Made by a program: the position numbers and the translations under genes. Shown here one piece after another: positions 1 through 13,800 of a stretch of 64,000 bases of DNA. The stretch's first letter is position 1; each line of letters begins with the position of its first letter. The notes beneath the pieces were generated by a model that worked only from the letters and a program-made list of their open reading frames with translations, ran no database searches and was not told the origin of the DNA. The DNA is from Vicinamibacterales bacterium. Its GTDB lineage: Bacteria; Acidobacteriota; Vicinamibacteria; Vicinamibacterales; Fen-181. Location of the stretch: the NCBI GenBank assembly GCA_036504215.1, contig DASXVO010000006.1, forward strand, positions 1 to 64,000, in the 5' to 3' direction.

Positions 1-1823
1 CCGTCCACCTGCACGGGGGGTTCATTCCGTGGGTGAGTGATGGCGGCCCGTTCCATTGGTTCGACGCCCAGGGCAACGAAGGCCTGTCGCGCGTGGCCTG
101 GCTTCCGATATCCCCAGGCGATCCGCGCTACGTCCGAGGTCCGAAGGCCAACAACCTCTCGAAGGACTACTGGTACCCGAACGACCAGAGCATGCGCCTG
201 ATGTGGTACCACGACCACGCGGTCGGCATCACTCGCCTCAACGCGTATGCCGGGCTTGCGACCGGATACCTGCTCCAGGACGCGTGGGAACAGGCCCTGA
301 TCAAGATCGGTGCGATTCCGGCCATGGACCGGCTCGTGCCGCTGATCATCCAGGACAAGACCTTCATCGGCCCGGAGGGCAATCCCGATGGTGGCCGGGG
401 AAGGCCTGGTGACCTGTGGTACCCAAACCTGTATGAGAAGAACTCCGTCGGACCGTCGGGCCGCTGGGACTGGGGCGGGGACAGCTTTCCGGGTACGTTC
501 AGCACCGATCCGCCGAACCCCTCTTGCGTGCCCGAGTTCTTCGCGGACACCCCGGTCATCAACGGGATGGCGTATCCGTACCTCGAGCTCGAACCGCGCC
601 GCTATCGGTTCCTGTTCCTGAACGGCTCGCAGGCGCGCTTCCTGAACCTGCAGCTCTACTTCGCGCGGTCGATGGACACGAACAACCCGGCATCGGGGGA
701 ACCGGACCTGAAGCACACCAAGGGGATTCCGGCGTTCGTCCAGATTGGCGCCGAGGGCGGCTTCCTGCCGGCGCCGGTCGTGTTCCCGAACGATCCCCCG
801 ATGCAGATGGCGTTCGATACCGACCCGACGAGCCCCACCAACGGGAACGCCACACAGTACAACCTGTTGATGGCGCCCGCCGAGCGTGCCGACGTGATCG
901 TCGACTTCTCGAAGGTCAAGCCGGGCTCGGTGATGGTCCTCTACAGTGATGCGCCGGCGCCATTCCCGGGCGGCGATCCTCGGAACGACTACTTTACGGG
1001 CGATCCGGACTACACCAGCGCCGCGGCGAATAAGGACGGCCTCGCCGGCGGGGCGGCGACCACCCTCGACGGGGCTGGGCCGAACACCCGTACGTTGATG
1101 CAGATTCGAATCGTGCCGCGCGTCGGCGCGGCCGACCCGGTCCTGCCGCTACCCCTGCTGCCGCCGATGGATCCCCCTCCGCTCATCAGGCCCGGCCATG
1201 TTCCCGCGTGGGTATCGAATCCGAATCTCAAGAATGAGCCCCCCGCCCGTGTCGATGTCGTCCGTGATCTCACGCTCAACGAGTACTTCGACGAGTATGG
1301 CCGCCTGATCCAGATGCTCGGCACCACAGAACCGACGGGGGTGGACGGCGGCGGAGCGCGACTCTATGGCGCCGAGTATTTCGACCCAACGTCGCTCCAA
1401 AGCGCCGCGTTCCAGTCGCCGACGGTCGGCGCCGTAGAAGTGTGGCGGATCTTCAACACGACGGGAGACACCCACCCGATGCACTTCCACCTGGTGAACC
1501 TCCAGGTGATCTCGCGGCAGGCGTTCGACGAGGGCGCGTTCATGAAGACCGGAGCCATCACTTTCATCGGGCCGGCAAGGCCCGCGGATCCGAACGAGCG
1601 CGGCTGGAAGGAAACGATCCGGATGAACCCTGCCGAGTGCATCACGCTCATCACCCGGTTCAGCCTGCCGGCCGACCCGGTCGTCGATCACAGGCGCGTG
1701 ACGGTGCCCTACAGTCCGCGATTCGAGGTGATGGGCATCAAGGGGTACGAGTACGTGTGGCACTGCCACATCCTGGAGCACGAGGAGCACGACATGATGC
1801 ACTCGCTCCTCGTGACCAGGTAG
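1..1823 (+). CDS. Multicopper oxidase (5' end missing)
   Basis: This is a laccase/CotA/bilirubin-oxidase-like multicopper oxidase, which oxidises a substrate or Cu(I) and reduces O2 to water, normally in the periplasm. The gene runs in from the left edge; the first full codon is at 3 and about 606 residues are visible, so the signal peptide and part of the first cupredoxin domain are missing. Copper motifs are in order: HLHGG (nt 6-20), WYHDH (204-218), HPMHFHL (1473-1493), and a C-terminal HCHILEHEEH block with a following DMM (1761-1799), which supplies the type 1 and type 2/3 ligands. Met after the last His cluster fits an axial type 1 ligand. The gene lies 25 nt upstream of a metal-efflux adaptor, which suggests a role in copper tolerance; the true substrate cannot be told from sequence. 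Confidence 0.93.
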   Translation, partial: VHLHGGFIPWVSDGGPFHWFDAQGNEGLSRVAWLPISPGDPRYVRGPKANNLSKDYWYPNDQSMRLMWYHDHAVGITRLNAYAGLATGYLLQDAWEQALIKIGAIPAMDRLVPLIIQDKTFIGPEGNPDGGRGRPGDLWYPNLYEKNSVGPSGRWDWGGDSFPGTFSTDPPNPSCVPEFFADTPVINGMAYPYLELEPRRYRFLFLNGSQARFLNLQLYFARSMDTNNPASGEPDLKHTKGIPAFVQIGAEGGFLPAPVVFPNDPPMQMAFDTDPTSPTNGNATQYNLLMAPAERADVIVDFSKVKPGSVMVLYSDAPAPFPGGDPRNDYFTGDPDYTSAAANKDGLAGGAATTLDGAGPNTRTLMQIRIVPRVGAADPVLPLPLLPPMDPPPLIRPGHVPAWVSNPNLKNEPPARVDVVRDLTLNEYFDEYGRLIQMLGTTEPTGVDGGGARLYGAEYFDPTSLQSAAFQSPTVGAVEVWRIFNTTGDTHPMHFHLVNLQVISRQAFDEGAFMKTGAITFIGPARPADPNERGWKETIRMNPAECITLITRFSLPADPVVDHRRVTVPYSPRFEVMGIKGYEYVWHCHILEHEEHDMMHSLLVTR

Positions 1824-1848: not shown

Positions 1849-3747
1849 ATGAGAAAGGCTGCTGCCTTTTCACTGGTGTGCGTCGTGGCCGGCCTGGCCT
1901 TCGTGGCGGGTTCCTGGGTGACGTGGCACATGTCCGCCCGGGGACGGGAGCCCGGACGAGCGCGGACGGTCCTGTATTGGGTGGATCCGATGCACCCGTC
2001 CTACAAGTCCGACAAGCCGGGCATCGCTCCCGATTGCGGCATGCAGCTCGAGCCGGTGTACGCCGACGAGCGCTCCGCAGTCGGGGGCCGAGTGTTGCCG
2101 CCCAACGCGATTCAGGTGTCCGTCGATCGGCAGCAGTTGATTGGCGTAAGGCTCGGCCATGCGGAACCGGCGCCGACTGCACGCACGGCGACCACAGTCG
2201 GACGGGTGGCGGTGGATGAGACGCGCGTCTTTCGCGTGGCGACGGGGGTGGATGGCCTCGTCCACGACGTCGCGCCGGTCTCCACGACGAACCTCGTCCA
2301 CAAAGACGAACTGCTGCTGCGCATCACCGCTCGCGACATTCTCACGGCCGAACAGAGCTTCTTCTACGGCCTGGCGGCGGTCGAGCGGTACCAGAAGGAA
2401 GGATCCGCGGGGCCGGATCAGATGAAGATCGCTGAGGCACAAGTGAAATCCGGCGCCGATTCACTTGCTGCCTATGGCGTCGGCGCACGCCAGATCGAGG
2501 ACCTGCGCCGCACGAGAGTGCCGACGACCGACGTGGACATCCGGTCTCCTGTGACGGGCTTCGTCCTCTCGCGCACGGTATTCTCCAACCAGCGCTACGA
2601 CCGGGGCGCGGAACTGTTTCGCATGGCCGATCTTCGACGAGTGTGGGTGCTGGCCGACGTCTTCGCCAACGAGGCGACCGCGTTGAGACCGGGCATGGCT
2701 GTGCGCCTCATCCTGCCCTATGGCGGCGGCCGGCGCCTCCACGGGCGCGTGGCCAATGCACTGCCGGCCTTCGATACCGCCTCCCGCACATTCAAGGTTC
2801 GGATCGAGGTCGACAATCCTGACTACCTCCTGCGGCCGGACATGTTCGTGGACGTGCAATTCGACGTCGCCCTGTCACCTGGTCTCACGGTTCCGGCCGA
2901 CGCGGTGGTGGATTCCGGCGCGCGCGCGACGGTCTTCGTGGACCGAGGCAATGGGTACTTCGAGCCACGGACGGTCGAAACCGGTTGGCGGGACGGCAAT
3001 CGCGTCCAGGTGCTGAGCGGCCTGACCGAGACGGACGCCATCGTCGTGTCGGGCAATTTTCTGCTCGATTCCGAATCGAGGATGCGAGCGGCAACGACCG
3101 GGGTGAACCCCGCGACGAGTCAGATCGACCCGGTGTGCGGCATGTCCGTGGATCCCGAGCGCGCTCGCGGTGCCGGGCAGACGCTCTCGCACGCCGGCCG
3201 CATGTACTACTTCTGCTCCCGCCAGTGCCGGGAGCGATTCGAGACGAACCCAGGCTCGTACACGTCGGAACACGATCACCTTCTGCCGTCATCGGCGCCG
3301 CGCCAGGTCGACGGTTCTCGACGGTCGCCGCCGATTGGTCGAAAGACCGAGCCGGCATCCACCGCGCCGGCTGGGATGGCGCAGCAAGACACGGTCGACG
3401 CGGGAATCGGTGCGCCCGCCAATGCGGTGATGATGGCGCAGGAGAAGGAAACGGAGCGGCCGGCTGCCTTCGATCATCAACAATACGCGCCGAAGAACAG
3501 GCTGCTTCGCCGTTCACATGTCGGGGCGTCATCCTCGATGGTTGAGGCGAAAGCCGACAGCGTCGCGTCAGCCGGGATCGCCGAAGACAACGTGCAACTC
3601 GACGTCGCGTGCGCTGCCATCGTCAACAAGATGGAGGCCTCGAGCAAAGGGCTCTTCGCGGTCTACAAGGACAAGACCTACTATTTCTCGAACGCTGACT
3701 GCAAGACCCGGTTCGACAAGGAGCCCGAGAAGTTCATCGGCAGGTGA
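1849..3747 (+). CDS. Metal-efflux RND periplasmic adaptor (CusB-like) with C-terminal YHS domains
   Basis: This is a 632-residue membrane-fusion adaptor that would link an inner-membrane RND pump to an outer-membrane channel. An N-terminal hydrophobic anchor (about residues 6-25) is followed by a heavy-metal-binding domain (residues 43-71: DPMHP, then DCGM), which is typical of CusB relatives. The HlyD-type hairpin, barrel-sandwich and beta-barrel regions fill about 85-410. A YHS domain follows at about 425-470 (DPVCGM and YYFCSRQC). After a low-complexity linker there is a second, decayed YHS-like unit at 582-632 (YYFSNADC, with no CGM). The ATG start follows the oxidase by 25 nt. No CusA pump gene is visible; it may lie to the left of the window. 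Copper or silver is the likely cargo, inferred from the family and the oxidase next door. Confidence 0.88.
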   Translation: MRKAAAFSLVCVVAGLAFVAGSWVTWHMSARGREPGRARTVLYWVDPMHPSYKSDKPGIAPDCGMQLEPVYADERSAVGGRVLPPNAIQVSVDRQQLIGVRLGHAEPAPTARTATTVGRVAVDETRVFRVATGVDGLVHDVAPVSTTNLVHKDELLLRITARDILTAEQSFFYGLAAVERYQKEGSAGPDQMKIAEAQVKSGADSLAAYGVGARQIEDLRRTRVPTTDVDIRSPVTGFVLSRTVFSNQRYDRGAELFRMADLRRVWVLADVFANEATALRPGMAVRLILPYGGGRRLHGRVANALPAFDTASRTFKVRIEVDNPDYLLRPDMFVDVQFDVALSPGLTVPADAVVDSGARATVFVDRGNGYFEPRTVETGWRDGNRVQVLSGLTETDAIVVSGNFLLDSESRMRAATTGVNPATSQIDPVCGMSVDPERARGAGQTLSHAGRMYYFCSRQCRERFETNPGSYTSEHDHLLPSSAPRQVDGSRRSPPIGRKTEPASTAPAGMAQQDTVDAGIGAPANAVMMAQEKETERPAAFDHQQYAPKNRLLRRSHVGASSSMVEAKADSVASAGIAEDNVQLDVACAAIVNKMEASSKGLFAVYKDKTYYFSNADCKTRFDKEPEKFIGR

Positions 3748-4004: not shown

Positions 4005-6770
4005 ATGATGGTCCATCGATTCCGTCTGTTGCAGCGGCCGCGAATGACGCTCATTGCCCTGGCGATCCTGGCTGGTGTCTTTGTGGCCGGGGCGCCGCGA
4101 ATCTCCGGGCAGGCCGGCACGACCGGCTGGAAGGTCGTTGCCTGGAACAACCTCGGCATGCACTGCATGGATGCCGATTTCAGCGTATTCGCCATCCTTC
4201 CCCCGTACAACACGATCCAGGCCCAGGTGATCGACGCGGCCGGCAATCTGGTGACGAGCCAGGCCGGCGTGAACCTGAGCTATCAGGGCATCGCGGATCC
4301 TACGGGGTCCATCAACACCACCTCGGCGGGCAAGACCAACTTCTGGTCGTTCGTCGCTCCGATGTTCGGCGTGACCCTGCCGGCAGACGTCGGCCTGCTC
4401 AACCACAACATGCCCGGGCTGGCCAACACTGCGCAGCCAATGGTTTTCGACCCGGCATTCAACTGGTTCATCGCCGAGGGCATCCCGATCACGCCCTACG
4501 ACAATGCCGGCGCCAAGAATCCCTACCCGCTGATGAAGGTGACGGCGAGCGACGCGGCCGGCGCGCCGCTCGCGTCAACGAACATCGTGTTGCCGGTCTC
4601 CGATGAGATGGACTGCTCAGCGTGTCACTCTTCGGCCTCTGGCCCCGCGGCGCGTCCACGGGCCGGCTGGGTGAATCTCGCGGACGCGCAGCGCGACTAT
4701 CGCTTCAACATCTTGCGGCTGCACGACGACCGGCAGCTTGGCAATCCAGCCTTCCTCAGCGCGCTTGCTGCCAAGGGCTACCGAAGCACCGGCCTGGAAG
4801 CCACTGCATCGGGAGGCAGGGCGATCCTGTGCGCCGCGTGTCACAAGTCGGAAGCACTGGTGGGCAGTGGCATGACCGGGATTCCGCCGCTCACGACTGC
4901 CGTCCATGCCCTGCACGCCAGGGTCGTGGATCCGACGAACAACTTCACGCTCGACTCGAGCAGCAACCGGTCGGCATGCTATCGGTGCCACCCAGGGTCG
5001 GTGACGCGGTGTCTGCGTGGGGTGATGGGCAACAGCGTGGCCGCGGACGGCACGATGGCGATTCAGTGCCAGAACTGCCACGGCCCGCTGAGCGCGGTCG
5101 GCAATCCCAACCGCACGGGTTGGTTTCAGGAGCCGACCTGCCAGAACTGCCACACCGGCACCGCCGTCTCGAACAGCGGGCAGATCCGGTTCACGTCGGC
5201 GTTCGGCTCGACTGGCTTGCCGCGAGCGGCGGCCGATCCGACCTTCGCCACCGTCGCCAACGCTCCTGCCGCCGGGCTGAGCCTCTACCGTTTCTCGGCT
5301 GGCCACGGCGGCCTGCAGTGCTCGGCGTGCCACGGATCGACGCACGCGGAATATCCGTCCGCCCACCCGAACGACAACCTTCAGAGTGTGGCACTTCAGG
5401 GACACGTGGGCACGATTGCCGAATGCACGGCGTGCCACCAGACGACGCCGACGACGACCAATGGCGGTCCGCACGGAATGCACGCGGTGGGGCAGGTCTG
5501 GATCTCCGGCCACCCGGATGCCGTCAACAATGGCGGGCAGTGCCAGGCGTGCCATGGCGCGGACTACCGGGGGACGGTGCTGTCGCGTGCGTTCGGCCCG
5601 CGAACGCTGACGACGTCGTTCGGCACGAAGACACTGTTCCGCGGTGCGCAGGTGAGCTGCTACATGTGCCACAACGGGCCCGGGGGAGGCGATTCGAATC
5701 CCAACCGGCCACCGGTGGCGGGCAACCTCTCGGCCTCGACCAGCGTCGGTGCGGCGGTCGCCATACCGTTGGCCGCGACCGATCCGGACGGCAACGCGCT
5801 CACTCTGCGAATCGTCTCTCAGCCGACGAACGGGACGGTCGGGCTTTCGGGCACGGTGGCGACATACTTCCCGTACGTCGGGTTCTCGGGTGCCGACACG
5901 TTCACCTACGCTGCCTGGGATGGATCGATTGACTCGAACCTGGCCACTGTGACGGTCCAGGTGGGCAGTGGAACAGGCGGGTGCTCGGTGGCGACAACGG
6001 CGTCTGCGCCCGGCACCGCGGCCGCTGGTGTGGCGGTGTCGTTCACCGGATCCGCAACGACGTCGGGGTGCACGGGTACCCTGACCTACGCGTGGAACTT
6101 CGGTGACGGCAGCGCGCTGTCCACGGCGCAGAGCCCGACCCATGTCTACGCCATCGCGGGTCCTTACACCTGGACGATGACGGCGTCGGACGGCGGGGTC
6201 TCGAGCGCTAAAACCGGCACCATCGTGGTGAGCGCCAGCGCACCCGCGTGTTCTCTGACCACGACGGCCTCGGCGCCGGCAACGGCTACCGTTCTGTCAC
6301 CCGTGTCGTTCGGCGCAACGGCGACCGCCACCAACTGCACAGGCACCGTGGCGTATGACTGGGACTTCGGCGATGGCGCCGCGCACTCCACCTCGCGCTC
6401 GCCGAGCCACACGTACTCGTCCGCGCGCACGTTCCAGTGGACGATGACCGCGTCGGTTGCGAGGGTGTCGAGCGCGAAGCGCGGCTCGATTGTCGTCACG
6501 AGTACGGCCGACTCCGCGCCGCAGATCTCGACGGTCACGGCGTTGTCGGATCCGTTCCGGATTCGGATCGACGGCGCGAACTTCCAACCGGGCGTCCGCG
6601 TGTTCATCGGCGGCAGCACCGTCGCCTCGGCGGACGTTCACCGGGTGAGTTCCACGCGGATCGACCTCAGCGGCGAGGGGGTGTCCAGCCGCTTCCCGCG
6701 GGCAACCCCGGTCTCGATCAGAGTGGTGAATCCGGACGGGCGGTCCGCGACCACCAGCTTCGCCAGGTGA
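4005..6770 (+). CDS. Secreted nine-haem c-type cytochrome with cadherin/PKD tail
   Basis: A 921-residue exported multihaem cytochrome. The start chosen is ATG 4005 (ATG 4008 follows directly), because a signal peptide ending near ISGQA begins there and GAGAAGGGG lies just upstream; the open frame extends further upstream without coding character. An N-terminal domain carries NNLGMHCMD, a motif I recognise from multihaem cytochromes of metal-reducing bacteria. Nine CxxCH haem sites then lie between about residues 203 and 556 (CSACH, CAACH, CYRCH, CQNCH twice, CSACH, CTACH, CQACH, CYMCH). Next come a cadherin-like Ig domain (nt 5710-5965), two PKD domains with NFGDG and DFGDG cores (nt about 5990-6500) and an IPT/TIG-like end. 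The protein is probably on the cell surface or in the periplasm and carries electrons; its partner is unknown. Confidence 0.88.
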   Translation: MMVHRFRLLQRPRMTLIALAILAGVFVAGAPRISGQAGTTGWKVVAWNNLGMHCMDADFSVFAILPPYNTIQAQVIDAAGNLVTSQAGVNLSYQGIADPTGSINTTSAGKTNFWSFVAPMFGVTLPADVGLLNHNMPGLANTAQPMVFDPAFNWFIAEGIPITPYDNAGAKNPYPLMKVTASDAAGAPLASTNIVLPVSDEMDCSACHSSASGPAARPRAGWVNLADAQRDYRFNILRLHDDRQLGNPAFLSALAAKGYRSTGLEATASGGRAILCAACHKSEALVGSGMTGIPPLTTAVHALHARVVDPTNNFTLDSSSNRSACYRCHPGSVTRCLRGVMGNSVAADGTMAIQCQNCHGPLSAVGNPNRTGWFQEPTCQNCHTGTAVSNSGQIRFTSAFGSTGLPRAAADPTFATVANAPAAGLSLYRFSAGHGGLQCSACHGSTHAEYPSAHPNDNLQSVALQGHVGTIAECTACHQTTPTTTNGGPHGMHAVGQVWISGHPDAVNNGGQCQACHGADYRGTVLSRAFGPRTLTTSFGTKTLFRGAQVSCYMCHNGPGGGDSNPNRPPVAGNLSASTSVGAAVAIPLAATDPDGNALTLRIVSQPTNGTVGLSGTVATYFPYVGFSGADTFTYAAWDGSIDSNLATVTVQVGSGTGGCSVATTASAPGTAAAGVAVSFTGSATTSGCTGTLTYAWNFGDGSALSTAQSPTHVYAIAGPYTWTMTASDGGVSSAKTGTIVVSASAPACSLTTTASAPATATVLSPVSFGATATATNCTGTVAYDWDFGDGAAHSTSRSPSHTYSSARTFQWTMTASVARVSSAKRGSIVVTSTADSAPQISTVTALSDPFRIRIDGANFQPGVRVFIGGSTVASADVHRVSSTRIDLSGEGVSSRFPRATPVSIRVVNPDGRSATTSFAR

Positions 6771-6952: not shown

Positions 6953-8170
6953 ATGCTCGCAGCCATTGATCGAACGCTTGAGCTCCATCGGGCACGGCGA
7001 CTCACAGATTCCTTGTTCGCCGAAGTCCAGCCTGAAGCCCTCTATGACCGTGGGATCCCTGAGCGTCACCGCGTGCTGTTCTACCTCGGCCATCTCGAGG
7101 CGTTCGACTGGAACCAGATTGGCCGCGCGGCGCTGAGCCTCCCACCCGTGAGCGAGTCGCTCGATCAACTCTTCGCGTTTGGCATCGACCCTCCCCCCGG
7201 CCAGTTACCGACGGATCGACCGGAGGACTGGCCGACGGTCGGGCAGACGCTCGACTACGCGAAGCGGGTCCGTGCCCACGTCGATGCCGTCATCGAACAG
7301 GCGCCTGACGTGGCGGCCAGCATCGCCGTCGAACACCGTTTGATGCACGCGGAGACGTTTGCCTACATTCTGCACAACCTGCCGCTCGACCGACGGGTTG
7401 CGGCACCAGCGGTCGTCGCGACATCTCGTGCCTCTTCGCCGATCCCCCGATTCATCGAGATTCCTGCCGGCACTGCCACGCTCGGGCGGGCTTCGGGCAC
7501 AGGGTTCGGCTGGGACAACGAGTTCGGCGCCCACTCCGAACGGGTACCGGCCTTCTCGATCGGCAAGCACAAAGTGACCAACGGCGACTACCTGGCGTTT
7601 GTCGAGGACGGCGGGCCGGTGCCCCATTACTGGTTGCGCGCCGGGCTCGGGTGGAAGTACCGCGCTTTCGCGAGTGAGCTGCCGCTTCCGCTCGACTGGC
7701 CGGTGTATGCGAGCCACAACCTGGCCGCTGCATACGCGGCGTGGGCCGGCAAGCGACTGCCGACCGAAGCCCAGTTTCAGCGGGCAGCGTTCGGCACGCC
7801 TGATGGTGACTGGCGCCGCTACCCGTGGGGCGATCAGCCGCCCGATCATGGTGGCCGTGGGAACTTCGACTTCGACCGCCGTGATCCGGTTTCGGTGACC
7901 GCCACTCCCCAAGGAGACTCCGCCTTTGGCGTGTCGCAGTTGGTCGGCAACGGCTGGGAGTGGACGCGGAGCGTGTTCGCGCCATTCCCGGGGTTCGAGC
8001 CGTTCCCCTCGTACCCCGGCTACTCGGCCAACTTCTTCGACGACGGCCACTTCGTCCTGAAGGGGGCCGCGCCGGTCACCGACCGCGCGCTGATCCGCGC
8101 CACGTTCCGCAACTGGTTCCGGCCGCACTATGCGTATGCCTACACGACCTTCCGCCTCGTTGAAGACTGA
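6953..8170 (+). CDS. egtB: Ergothioneine synthase EgtB (non-haem iron sulfoxide synthase)
   Basis: EgtB joins N-alpha-trimethylhistidine (hercynine) to a thiol donor with O2, making the C-S bond of ergothioneine. The 405-residue protein has an N-terminal DinB-like helical domain followed by a formylglycine-generating-enzyme-like domain from about residue 165 (IPAGTATLGR, then WDNEFGAH) to the end (RNWFRPHYAYAYTTFR). The three iron ligands are visible: H47 in GHLEAFDWN and H128/H132 in EHRLMHAE, a spacing that matches characterised EgtB enzymes. The egtD gene overlaps its 3' end, so the two are probably translated together. No egtA or egtC (gamma-glutamylcysteine route) and no egtE lie nearby. 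Enzymes that use cysteine directly are known from Chloracidobacterium, another acidobacterium, so that route is plausible here. Confidence 0.9.
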   Translation: MLAAIDRTLELHRARRLTDSLFAEVQPEALYDRGIPERHRVLFYLGHLEAFDWNQIGRAALSLPPVSESLDQLFAFGIDPPPGQLPTDRPEDWPTVGQTLDYAKRVRAHVDAVIEQAPDVAASIAVEHRLMHAETFAYILHNLPLDRRVAAPAVVATSRASSPIPRFIEIPAGTATLGRASGTGFGWDNEFGAHSERVPAFSIGKHKVTNGDYLAFVEDGGPVPHYWLRAGLGWKYRAFASELPLPLDWPVYASHNLAAAYAAWAGKRLPTEAQFQRAAFGTPDGDWRRYPWGDQPPDHGGRGNFDFDRRDPVSVTATPQGDSAFGVSQLVGNGWEWTRSVFAPFPGFEPFPSYPGYSANFFDDGHFVLKGAAPVTDRALIRATFRNWFRPHYAYAYTTFRLVED

Positions 8171-9185
8171 CCCGTCCGACGACCTCGTACGCCCCGTGGA
8201 CGCAGTGGCCCACGCGATGGAGGCCGCGCGCCTTGCGGCGTTCACGTTTGAGGTGCACGCGGGCCTCCGCCAGCGTCAGAAGACGCTTCCCTGTAAGTAC
8301 CTGTACGACGATGTCGGGAGCGCACTGTTCGACGCAATCACCCATCTGCCAGAGTACGGCGTGACGCGAGCCGAGGAGGGCCTGCTGGTCGAGCAGGCGC
8401 CACGAATCGTGGAAGCGCTCGTGCCCGGCGTGATGGTGGCGGAACTCGGAAGCGGCAGCGGCCGGAAGACCACGACGATCCTGGATGCGATCCTGCGCTA
8501 CCAGCGGGAAGTGGCCTACTACCCGATCGACATCTCGGCGGGCGCGCTCGAAGCCTGCCGGCTCCGAATCGGCGCCACGCAGGGCGTTCGCGTTCACGGG
8601 GTTGAAGGTCAGTACCTCGAAGGGTTGCAGCGTCTGGACGCGGGCCGCGAGGCATGGCCGCCGGCGCTCGTCCTGTTCCTTGGCAGCAACATCGGGAATT
8701 TCGGCCGGGCCGAGGCACTCACATTTCTTGCGGGCGTGCGGCGCCAGCTGAGGGCCGGTGACGCGCTGCTCGTCGGCGCGGATCTGCGCAAGCCTGTCGC
8801 GCGGCTGCTCGCGGCCTACGACGATCCGATCGGTGTGACCGCCGCGTTCAACCTGAATCTCCTGGCGCGGATCAACCGCGAGCTGGGCGCTGATTTCGAT
8901 CTGCGCCGGTTCCGCCACGAAGCACGGTGGTGCGAAACGGAGTCGCGGGTGGAGATGCACCTGCGGTCACTCGAGGATCAAGTGGTGACGATCGGCCAGA
9001 CCGGTGTGCGAATTCCGTTCCTGGCGGGCGAGAGCATCTGGACCGAATCGTCGTACAAGTTCGAGCCGGAAGAACTCGACGCGCTGGCGCGGTCCGCCGG
9101 CTTCTCGCCGGTCTCCCGCTGGACGAGCGGCGGGTGGACGTTTGCCGAGAGCCTTTGGGTCGTCACTGCGACCGGCGACGAGTGA
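8130..9185 (+). CDS. egtD: L-histidine N-alpha-methyltransferase EgtD
   Basis: EgtD trimethylates histidine with S-adenosylmethionine to give hercynine, the substrate of the EgtB encoded just upstream. The 351 residues fit the family's usual size of about 320 plus a longer N-terminus. Visible landmarks are YLYDDVGSALFDAI (58-70), LPEYGVTRAEE (73-83), the SAM loop ELGSGSGRKT (105-114), YYPIDIS and FLGSNIGNF. Most EgtD proteins read LPEYYPTR; here YG replaces YY. The reading frame overlaps egtB by 41 nt from the ATG at 8130; ATG 8217 or GTG 8196 are alternative starts that would remove the overlap. Function is inferred from the family and the neighbour. Confidence 0.88.
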   Translation: MRMPTRPSASLKTDPSDDLVRPVDAVAHAMEAARLAAFTFEVHAGLRQRQKTLPCKYLYDDVGSALFDAITHLPEYGVTRAEEGLLVEQAPRIVEALVPGVMVAELGSGSGRKTTTILDAILRYQREVAYYPIDISAGALEACRLRIGATQGVRVHGVEGQYLEGLQRLDAGREAWPPALVLFLGSNIGNFGRAEALTFLAGVRRQLRAGDALLVGADLRKPVARLLAAYDDPIGVTAAFNLNLLARINRELGADFDLRRFRHEARWCETESRVEMHLRSLEDQVVTIGQTGVRIPFLAGESIWTESSYKFEPEELDALARSAGFSPVSRWTSGGWTFAESLWVVTATGDE

Positions 9186-9456
9186 TTGAACATAGAGACC
9201 GCGGTGACCCGTCCAGACGTCTTGAACGGCCAACGTCGTGGCGAGTGAGTGAAGTTCTGTGACGTCTGTCCGCCCGTTCAAGATGTCTACGCCCCACGTT
9301 TCGCGGGGCCAGCCAACAGCGTGTCTGGTGCTGGCGGGGCATCCCGGTTGGCGGCGTTGCTCCTCCCTCACATACTCCCAGTATGCTCGGTCGTCGCGCC
9401 TTGCCAGCCGGGCGCCGCGCTCCGGGACTTCGGCAACGAACCACTGTTTCGGGACA
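9186..9456. other. Non-coding convergent spacer rich in inverted repeats
   Basis: The 271-nt gap between two convergent genes has no credible reading frame but holds several nested palindromes: 15-nt arms with one mismatch at 9215-9229 and 9274-9288; CCCC/GGGG-based arms at 9292-9308; GCCAGC/GCTGGC at 9308-9313 and 9330-9335; and CATACT-ccc-AGTATG at 9371-9385. It may be a decayed palindromic mobile unit or a structured terminator region. The palindromes are seen; the nature is inferred. Confidence 0.4.
9215..9288. repeat. Inverted repeat, 15-nt arms
   Basis: The left arm is at 9215-9229 (AGACGTCTTGAACGG) and the right arm at 9274-9288 is its reverse complement with one mismatch. The arms are separated by 44 nt. 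The pair lies downstream of egtD, between convergent genes. Confidence 0.55.
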
Positions 9457-9729
9457 CTAGTATTCCGCGAACGTCTCGTCCGGATAGCAGTAGAGCCAGC
9501 GTTCACCCGATTCCGCCGATGCGACGACGGGATGGTTGCTGGCGCGCGCATGCGTGCTGGCGTGTCGCTTGGGCGAGGAGTCGCAGCACAGTGTCGCACC
9601 GCACGCCTGGCAGGTTCGCAGGTGCACCCAGGAACTGCCCGCCTTCACGCATTCGTCACATTGATGGCGGCTCGCCGCGCGGACCGTCGTAATGCCCTCG
9701 ATGTGAGCGCAGACGTCTTGGCTGGGCAT
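9457..9729 (-). CDS. UBP-type zinc finger protein
   Basis: A 90-residue protein made almost wholly of a UBP (ubiquitin-hydrolase type) zinc finger. Candidate zinc ligands are C7 and H9, C24 and C27, C40 and C43, C48/C49, H56/H60 and H66, in the order and spacing of zf-UBP. In eukaryotes this fold binds the free C-terminus of ubiquitin; bacterial stand-alone copies occur but their role is not known. The start chosen is ATG 9729, with GGAGA 7 nt upstream; the longer open frame begins inside the next gene. It lies 2 nt after the DUF5996 gene, so the two are probably one transcript. Confidence 0.8.
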   Translation of the reverse strand: MPSQDVCAHIEGITTVRAASRHQCDECVKAGSSWVHLRTCQACGATLCCDSSPKRHASTHARASNHPVVASAESGERWLYCYPDETFAEY

Positions 9730-10667: not shown

Positions 10668-10881
10668 GGACCATCCCCCAGCAGGCGTGATCGGCCTGCA
10701 CTGATGTTGCGTGACTCGGCGGATACTCCAGGCTACGGCCGATGGCCGACCGGACGCAAGCTCAGCGCCTCGGCCTGCAACCAAGGCCGCGCGCGACCTT
10801 CGGTGCGGGCAGCCGATTGTGCCCGCGCGGCGCTGAGTCCTGCGAGCACAACGACGCCGCGGCACTCGTGCATCGAAGGAC

Positions 10882-13800
10882 TCAGGAGGCGGCCAGCTGT
10901 GGCGACGGCTTCTTCGCCGTCTTTCGGTGCGCCAGCCACTCCTGGAAGTGCTCCAGGTAGATGTAGTAGATCGGGGTGATGTAGAGGGTGAGTGTCTGCG
11001 ATACCAGCATGCCGCCTACCACCGCCAGGCCGAGCGGGCGCCGCGCCTCGGACCCTGCGCCCCAGCCCAGCGCGATCGGCAGCGTGCCCATCAGCGCCGA
11101 CATCGTCGTCATCATGATCGGGCGGAATCGGACCCGGCACGCTTCGTAGATGGCTTCAGCCGGGCTCAGGTTCTCGCGGCGCCGCGCCTCGATGGCGAAG
11201 TCGATCATCATGATGCCGTTCTTCTTCACCAGGCCGACCAGCATGATGATGCCGACGAAGGCGTAGATATTCAGGTCGTGTTTGAACAACAGCAGCGTGA
11301 GCAACGCGCCGAACCCGGCCGCGGGAAGCCCGGACAGGATCGTGAGCGGGTGGATGAAGCTCTCGTAGAGGATGCCGAGCACCACGTAGATCACGAAAAT
11401 CGCGAGCGCCAGCACCCAGCCGAGACCGGTCATCGACTCCTGAAATGCCTGTGCTGTCCCCTGGAAGCTTCCTGAGATCGTGGCGGGCAGCGTGTTGCGG
11501 GCCACGTCTTGAACCCGCGCCACCGCGTCGCCAAGCGCAACGCCCGGTCTGAGGTTGAACGACAGGGTGACCGACGGCAACTGCCCGGTATGGTTGACCG
11601 ACAGCGGCCCGACCGTCTGGCGCGTCGCGACGACGGTTGACAATGGGACCAGCTTGCCGGCGTTCGACTGGACGTAGAGCAGCGAGAGGGCGGCCGGATC
11701 GCGCTGGTACTTTGGGGCCACCTGCATGATCACCTGGTACTGATCGTCCGGTGCGAATATCTGCGAGACCTGCCGCGAGCCATACGCGGAGGTCAACGCC
11801 AATTCGACCTGATCGACGGTGAGGCCGAGCGCCGCGATCTGATCACGGTTGAGGTCGACGTTGATCTGAGGGTTGCGGAGCTGCAGGTCGGACGTCACGT
11901 CCTCGATTCCGTCGACCGTGCGGAGCGCCGCTTCGAACCGGGGCGCGGACCGGTACAGCTCGGCAGTGTCTGGATCCTGGAGAGTGTATTGGTACTGGCT
12001 GCGCGTCATCATGCCGCCGATGCGGATAGCCGGTGGGTTCGTCAGGAACACGCGGACGCCGGTGATCCGGGCGAGCTTCGGGCGCAGCGCCTCGATGACC
12101 CGATCGGCGTCGAGCGGCCGCTGGTTGCGTGGCTTCAGGTCGACATTCAACCGCCCGCCAGACCCGAACACGTTCGCGGTGTATCCGGCGACATTCGGGT
12201 CGTTCGCGAGGACGTTCATCACTTCCTTCACGCGAGCGACCGTCGCTTCGAAACCGAGGCCCTGGAGCGTCTCGATCTGTCCGCTCAACTGACCGGTGTC
12301 CACGCTGGGGATGAATCCCATCGGGATGATTGTGAAGAGATAGACGGTGCCGCCGAGCAGGAGCGCCGAGACGAGCATCGTGGCGCCCTTGAACCGAATC
12401 GTCTGCCCGAGCGACCACGAGTAGCCTCGCAGCCAGGCGTCGAATCCTCGCTCCATGAGGTTGTAGAAGCGCCCGTGCCGGATGGCGTGCGGCGCCTTCA
12501 GGAACCGGCTGCAGAGCATGGGCGTGAGCGTGAGCGACACGAGTCCGGACACGAGAATCGCCGCACCAATCGTCACCGCGAACTCGCGCATCAGTCGGCC
12601 GACAACGCCACCCATGAACAGCACCGGGATGAAGACGGCGGCGAGCGACAGCGTCATCGACACGATGGTGAACGCGATCTCCTTCGAGCCGTCGAGGGCA
12701 GCCTGCAGCCGCGGCTTGCCCATCTCCATGTGCCGGACGACGTTCTCGAGCATGACGATGGCGTCGTCCACGACGAAGCCGACCGAGAGCGTCAGCGCCA
12801 TCAACGACAGGTTGTCGAGGCTGAAATCGAGCGCGTACATCACCGCAAACGTGCCGACGATTGAGAAGGGCAGCGCGAGGCTGGGGATGATCGTCGCCGA
12901 GACGTTGCGGAGGAACAGGAAGATCACCAGCACGACGAGGCAGACCGTCAGCTGGAGCGTGAACTTCACGTCGTCCACCGACTCGCGGATCGGCACGGCG
13001 CGATCGCTCCGGATCCGCAACTGTACCGACGCGGGAAGCTGCTGCTCGAGCTGCGGGAGCAGCGCCTTGATGCGATCGACGACTTCGACCGTATTGGTTC
13101 CCGGCTGTCGCTGGATGGCCAGGTAAATGGTGCGGGCGCCGTTGTACCACCCCGCATTGCGCTCGTTCTCGACCCCGGCGTAGACGTTCGCGATCTCGTT
13201 CAGACGCACCGGGCTGCCGTTCCGCCAGGCGACGACGATTCCGTTGTAGGAACCGGCATCCAGCAGTTGGCCGGCCGCCTGGATTACGTAATTGCGGTCC
13301 GGGCCATAGAGCGTCCCGGTTGGCCGGTTGACGTTCGATGACGAGATGGCTTGCGCCACCTGGTCGATTCCAATCTGCCGTGACGCGAGCTGCATCGGAT
13401 CGACGTCCACGCGCACGGCGAACTTCTGCGATCCGAACACGTTCACCTGCGCCACTCCGGTGACCATCGACAGGCGCTGCGCAAGGAGGTTCTGCGCGTA
13501 CCGATCGAGCTGCGCCAGGGGCAGCGTGGGGGAGCTCAGCGTCAAGAACAGGACCGGGGAGTCGGCCGGATTGACCTTCTGAAACGAGGGCGGCGAGGGC
13601 ATCCCGGGCGGCAGCTGGCGCTGGGCGCGCGCGATCATCGACTGAACGTCCTGCGCCGCCGCGTCGATGGATCGGCTCAGGTCGAACTGCAGCGTGATGC
13701 TGGTGCTCCCCTGCGAGTTGCTCGAGTTGATGGAACTCACGCCCGCGATCGTGGAGAACTGCTTCTCGAGCGGCGTCGCGACCGATGCCGCCATCGTCTC

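Follow-up and report, generated by a model that had tools for sequence, protein, structure and literature searches.

An apparently undescribed, widespread family of nine-haem cytochromes with a predicted N-terminal beta-sandwich and variable tails

Multihaem cytochromes decide which microbes exchange electrons with minerals and electrodes, and many of them have no family name. MtrC, OmcA and MtrF carry ten haems, arranged in two beta-haem domain pairs. According to the available text on OmcZ, this cytochrome consists of an N-terminal octahaem domain with bis-histidine ligation of all haems and predicted C-terminal tandem immunoglobulin-like (Ig) domains; its C-terminal part is removed by the subtilisin-like protease OzpA, and the filament is devoid of Ig domains (PMC9473688). 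The nonahaem cytochrome OcwA of Thermincola has an extra beta-sheet domain and serves extracellular electron transfer. As given in the accessible part of its description, its histidines sufficed for nine bis-histidine haems, yet two haems in its structure are putative active sites, and it has nitrite-reducing activity (PMC6703420). For Dethiobacter, the available text reports MtoA-like multihaem proteins with large C-terminal immunoglobulin-like domains (PMC10376724).

We studied a stretch of 64,000 nucleotides (the window) that forms the start of contig C6 (DASXVO010000006.1) of a Vicinamibacterales genome (Acidobacteriota) of 5.9 Mb in 90 contigs. A preliminary description of this DNA had placed a nine-haem cytochrome at 4005-6770; these coordinates proved exact, and all nine CXXCH motifs were found. 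The gene starts with an ATG at 4005, preceded by the Shine-Dalgarno-like AGAAGGGG, and ends with a stop codon at 6768-6770.

4005..6770, + strand: nine-haem cytochrome gene, 921 aa (reading of the open reading frame; relatives)
4005..4115, + strand: Sec-type signal peptide, residues about 1-37, without a lipobox cysteine (leader assigned by eye)

The gene is present in a single copy in the host genome, where the second-best match reaches 17.5 bits. Base composition gave no sign of recent transfer, the G+C content being 66.4% in the haem module and 66.3% in the window. In c-type cytochromes haem is attached outside the cytoplasm, and an export signal is hence expected. Nine CXXCH motifs and a leader that reads as Sec-like by eye mark the protein as a multihaem c-type cytochrome, which most likely works beyond the inner membrane. 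It may be located at the surface; no lipobox or sorting signal was recognised by eye in the 921 residues.

We consider it probable that the protein is a c-type cytochrome that is exported and relays electrons along an unbroken chain of nine bis-histidine haems. A beta-sandwich carrying the GMHC motif would cap its N-terminus, clasped to the haem core by the axial histidine H53 and a disulfide between C54 and C336. The cytochrome would exchange electrons on one side with a partner in the periplasm or outer membrane, and on the other with an extracellular acceptor or donor (a mineral, an electrode, humic matter or another cytochrome), and the tail domains would be lineage-specific spacers or anchors, not the working part.

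The cytochrome belongs to a real and widespread family, although its kind is already known. A scan of genome contigs yielded 28 relative loci, 25 of which span the haem module (residues 39-563) and are 45–66% identical to the window module; these counts leave aside L033 and L034, cut at contig ends, and L035, which is probably chimeric. Nine CXXCH motifs are present in 24 of the 25, the Chloroflexota protein L032 having seven. The relatives carry the labels of eight phyla: Acidobacteriota, Thermodesulfobacteriota (Geomonas, Geobacter, Desulfobacteraceae), Planctomycetota, Myxococcota, Verrucomicrobiota, Omnitrophota, Aquificota and Chloroflexota. These labels come from record titles, mostly of metagenome bins, and single ones may be wrong. 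What makes the family notable is this conservation of the core over eight labelled phyla, combined with a domain unmatched in the searched Pfam and with swappable tails. Geomonas and Geobacter are known metal reducers, and the occurrence of relatives in them supports the electron-relay reading; the Geomonas carriers also make the role testable. Both Hydrogenothermaceae loci (L033 and L034) end at contig ends and have low-complexity linkers rich in N, D, Y and H upstream of the GMHC domain, L034 with a lipobox-like leader. In L035 (6827-7495), from an alphaproteobacterial bin, a GMHC fragment is fused to an unrelated enzyme-like sequence, probably through chimeric assembly.

The family profile finds matches at E 1e-30 in 45 of the 396 host-phylum genomes searched. 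Stronger carriers, with a best E of 1e-120 or below, make up 21 of these 45 and include some fragments; the remaining matches are weaker or confined to the N-terminal domain and first haem. Among eleven weaker-match loci examined, nine encode cytochromes of the same plan with 7, 8 or 9 haems, and no GMHC frame was found in the other two, L061 and L062. Within the genus, a strong match was found in only one (G003) of four other genomes, and this copy (L003) falls in a different clade from the window cytochrome in a tree built without the repeats of named loci (L065, L066, L067, L074, L081). The spread is thus patchy, which may reflect transfer or loss of paralogues. No relatives were found in the viral contigs scanned, among 72,556 plasmid records or in PHROGs. 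A literature search did not find the nine-haem family described, and the strings NNLGMHC, NDLGMHC and GMHCMD were absent from the papers searched (open-licence PMC text). Matching no known family and having no name in the sources searched, the family is apparently undescribed; with a named family model, metagenome surveys could find the cytochrome.

The haem chain occupies a single region of the protein.

4614..5672, + strand: haem chain, nine CXXCH, residues 204-556
4614..4628, + strand: CXXCH 1, residue 204
4830..4844, + strand: CXXCH 2, residue 276
4977..4991, + strand: CXXCH 3, residue 325
5067..5081, + strand: CXXCH 4, residue 355
5139..5153, + strand: CXXCH 5, residue 379
5319..5333, + strand: CXXCH 6, residue 439
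5424..5438, + strand: CXXCH 7, residue 474
5541..5555, + strand: CXXCH 8, residue 513
5658..5672, + strand: CXXCH 9, residue 552

Shuffling the protein 10,000 times gave a mean of 0.017 motifs and a maximum of 2, against the nine observed, and no other stop-to-stop frame in the window has at least two. Cytochrome_C7 and other generic haem models of Pfam match the middle of the protein. Nine histidines outside the motifs are conserved as well (53, 240, 301, 304, 434, 447, 490, 493 and 503). We compared them in an alignment of 53 rows, which includes the repeat loci L065, L066, L067, L074 and L081 and in which L069, identical to L022, shares its row. All nine motifs and all nine extra histidines are present in 44 rows, five of which repeat contigs already represented. 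Among the four seven-haem rows, L055, L057 and L058 retain exactly seven extra histidines and L032 retains six. Seven of the nine are found in the eight-haem rows L054, L060 and L064, and eight in the nine-haem rows L056 and L059. Being short of conserved histidines, L032 and these five proteins would need others as ligands. The near one-to-one count of conserved histidines and haems nevertheless suggests bis-histidine ligation throughout, and thus fits a design with nine such haems for electron relay rather than catalysis.

This count also bears on the alternative that the protein is an enzyme whose open haem would catalyse the reduction of nitrite, sulfite, tetrathionate or a similar substrate. 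In favour of this alternative, the model of octahaem tetrathionate reductases matches weakly (20.5 bits, cut-off 375), yet it does so over a stretch with several generic haem motifs, and the nine-haem rows have one conserved histidine per haem. OcwA offers a precedent and a warning: it resembles our protein in its nine haems and extra beta-sheet domain, and enough histidines did not preclude putative active-site haems there, which calls for caution in counting ligands. It differs, as far as the available text goes, in its NrfA/c554-like fold and its two putative active sites (PMC6703420). No sequence match to NrfA, c554, MccA or OcwA was found, and the model of the haem part was too weak for a fold search. 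On balance, an enzymatic function seems very unlikely to us. The AlphaFold model of the haem half is poor (ten-residue means mostly 28–62), which puts this part outside the reach of fold comparison; the structure prediction proposed in the preliminary description was likewise too poor here for haem distances.

The GMHCMD-type N-terminus that had been pointed out earlier is indeed present, and it lies in a conserved domain.

4122..4604, + strand: N-terminal GMHC domain (residues about 40-200), predicted to fold as a beta-sandwich; matches no Pfam family
4161..4166, + strand: H53, a putative axial ligand, and C54, which may take part in a disulfide; all 53 aligned rows have both
5010..5012, + strand: C336, a cysteine outside the haem motifs that may pair with C54 in a disulfide; present in all 53 aligned rows

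No Pfam family matched the N-terminal part of the cytochrome. Its structure prediction is good (pLDDT 86) and consists mainly of strands. Fold searches with the whole module and with the N-terminal domain returned only generic beta-sandwiches (p53, antibodies, InvE, CrdA), with best Z values of 5.3 and 6.5, respectively, and none above 6.5 for the domain. Among the best 50 fold matches of the domain there was one cytochrome, MtrC (7qth, E 0.019), outranked by p53 chains. Apart from those of the haem motifs, C54 and C336 are the only cysteines at near-invariant positions in the haem-module alignment (row set A1 is without L024, and A3 without L014, L024 and L026). Since both are invariant, they are likely to form a disulfide that ties the haem core and the N-terminal domain together.

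The order of a beta domain and then a multihaem domain recalls MtrC, OmcA and MtrF. These proteins have ten haems, whereas the window cytochrome has one N-terminal beta domain and nine motifs in a single run, the model of its haem half being poor. The Pfam model Mtrc-MtrF_II-IV_dom (PF22113) matches it with 39.6 bits (cut-off 30). This model is not diagnostic of MtrC, because it also matches an MtrA-like 11-haem protein and a 51-haem protein of the host; both score higher, and membership of the MtrC group on this ground was dropped. Neither the OmcA/MtrC model TIGR03507 nor the HmcA model, taken for the group of HmcA and the Desulfovibrio nine-haem cytochrome, matched the window cytochrome at E up to 1.

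Behind the haems, the protein continues with a beta-sandwich tail.

5703..5957, + strand: Big_9 / cadherin-like domain, residues 567-651 (Pfam)
5991..6227, + strand: PKD domain 1, residues 663-741 (Pfam)
6249..6506, + strand: PKD domain 2 (Pfam reports two PKD stretches; limits by eye)
6522..6767, + strand: C-terminal domain, common to L008, L009 and L024 (tail comparison); by eye it resembles IPT/TIG

Cadherin and PKD domains had been proposed for this region. The two PKD stretches hold (PKD_4, 79.3 bits), but the cadherin label is marginal: with 26.9 bits, Cadherin_5 is just above its cut-off of 26.5, and it overlaps a better Big_9 match (51.7 bits, cut-off 23.6). Big_9 was matched in 19 of the 25 relatives at 37–66% identity. 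By sequence it is part of the usual architecture and the only tail domain common to most relatives; the PKD and last domains are common to fewer. The tail itself is variable. It is proline-rich in L010, L011 and L014, only 6, 7 and 23 residues follow the last CXXCH in L022, L031 and L032, and a C-terminal beta-sandwich tail is missing in 6 of the 25. This variability makes a general adhesive role appear unlikely, and the suggestion that the tail provides attachment is not borne out as a general rule.

A bis-histidine haem domain with a tandem beta-sandwich tail behind it is also the plan of OmcZ, which differs, in the available text, in having eight haems, no mention of an N-terminal beta domain and a protease gene in its operon (PMC9473688). 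The window protein could accordingly be a similar precursor, from which a protease strips the Ig/PKD pro-region to free the haem module as a wire or soluble shuttle. The shared plan, with a tail that varies in length and is sometimes absent, and the published cleavage of the Ig part by OzpA, with filaments free of Ig domains, are compatible with this (PMC9473688). However, searching PDB sequences with the protein and with the profile gave no OmcZ chain at E up to 1, and the window cytochrome has one haem more and an additional beta domain at its N-terminus. A pattern search of the window and 43 relative loci found no subtilisin-type active site; ozpA and omcZ, by contrast, are organised in operons. 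With no OzpA-like pattern near any copy and no similarity to OmcZ, such tail removal stays a rival explanation, and an unlikely one. The Dethiobacter proteins likewise join a multihaem domain and an Ig-like tail, but their haem domain is MtoA-like and their host unrelated, as far as the accessible text goes (PMC10376724).

Two genes lie upstream of the cytochrome; we judged both to be outside the system.

33..1823, + strand: multicopper oxidase
1849..3747, + strand: CusB-like RND adaptor with YHS and HMBD domains

The oxidase start may be cut, because the window begins at base 1 of the contig. The cytochrome had been described as lying next to a copper oxidase. The oxidase is real but not adjacent: 25 bases separate it from the CusB-like gene, and 257 bases lie between the latter and the cytochrome. 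Multicopper oxidase, CusB-like protein, EgtB and EgtD gave no matches (tblastn, E 1e-3) in 46 relative loci, some of them short contigs or second copies. A functional link with the oxidase finds no backing there, and partnership as a general rule was dropped. Clustering of 264 ORFs from loci L008-L035 and the first 20 kb of the window, with greedy ORF calling that may miss small genes, revealed no neighbour common to more than two loci besides the cytochrome, except for one five-locus ORF cluster with a member that is response-regulator-like by eye. No conserved neighbour indicating a pathway was found at the relative loci. Directly downstream of the cytochrome (6953-9185) lies an ergothioneine-type pair, an EgtB/OvoA-like sulfoxide synthase and an EgtD histidine methyltransferase.

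A search of the whole genome for outer-membrane conduits, suggested in the preliminary description, revealed two MtrB/PioB porins. Both are encoded directly after a DmsE/MtrA-type multihaem gene, and one is followed by feoB. An outward electron path thus exists in principle. These loci are on contigs C35 and C59 and the cytochrome is on C6, so that the co-encoding with MtrA and MtrB typical of MtrC/OmcA is absent. The MtrB/PioB model matches the host genome and 72 of the 396 phylum genomes; 6 genomes have both porin and family, against 8.2 expected, and among the 21 stronger carriers the numbers are 4 and 3.8 (Fisher p = 1). In 24 genomes with a relative there was no match, and the control had none in this search either. 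The porin partnership was dropped on the lack of association over the 396 genomes. The idea that electrons pass to or from outer surfaces therefore keeps its export signal, its nine putative bis-histidine ligand sets and two conduits elsewhere in the genome, and loses the conduit nearby.

A role confined to the periplasm, as electron carrier or capacitor, would suit the plain leader of the window protein, which has no lipobox, and the lack of a dedicated conduit or second multihaem gene nearby. We regard it as rather unlikely, as tails of the Ig and PKD type commonly occur in proteins that are secreted or surface-bound and lipobox-like leaders were read by eye in the relatives L034, L054, L063 and L064. 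A more far-reaching proposal is a separate, phylum-crossing class of self-sufficient extracellular wires, in which the nine-haem module, held by its GMHC domain, would be exported on its own with a removable or exchangeable tail, polymerising or docking on many surfaces without a dedicated porin partner. If true, it would explain both the missing conserved neighbours and the patchy spread; we hold it to be quite doubtful, and prefer the exported relay cytochrome with its clasped N-terminal domain.

Some further observations concern the host genome. On contig C35, genes for an 11-CXXCH protein, an NrfH-like protein, a DmsE/MtrA-type cytochrome and MtrB/PioB are followed by feoB (L098:5400-14718), possibly an iron-linked porin-cytochrome conduit. 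Short dispersed repeats in the window (9215-9340, 9339-9460 and 10812-10892) recur on many contigs of this genome and of the genus. A 1357-aa ORF on contig C16 (L100:4104-8177) has 51 CXXCH motifs, with Cytochrome_C7 and class III cytochrome matches, and a 633-aa ORF on contig C20 (L101:3632-5533) has 23, with an 11-CXXCH ORF nearby on the opposite strand.
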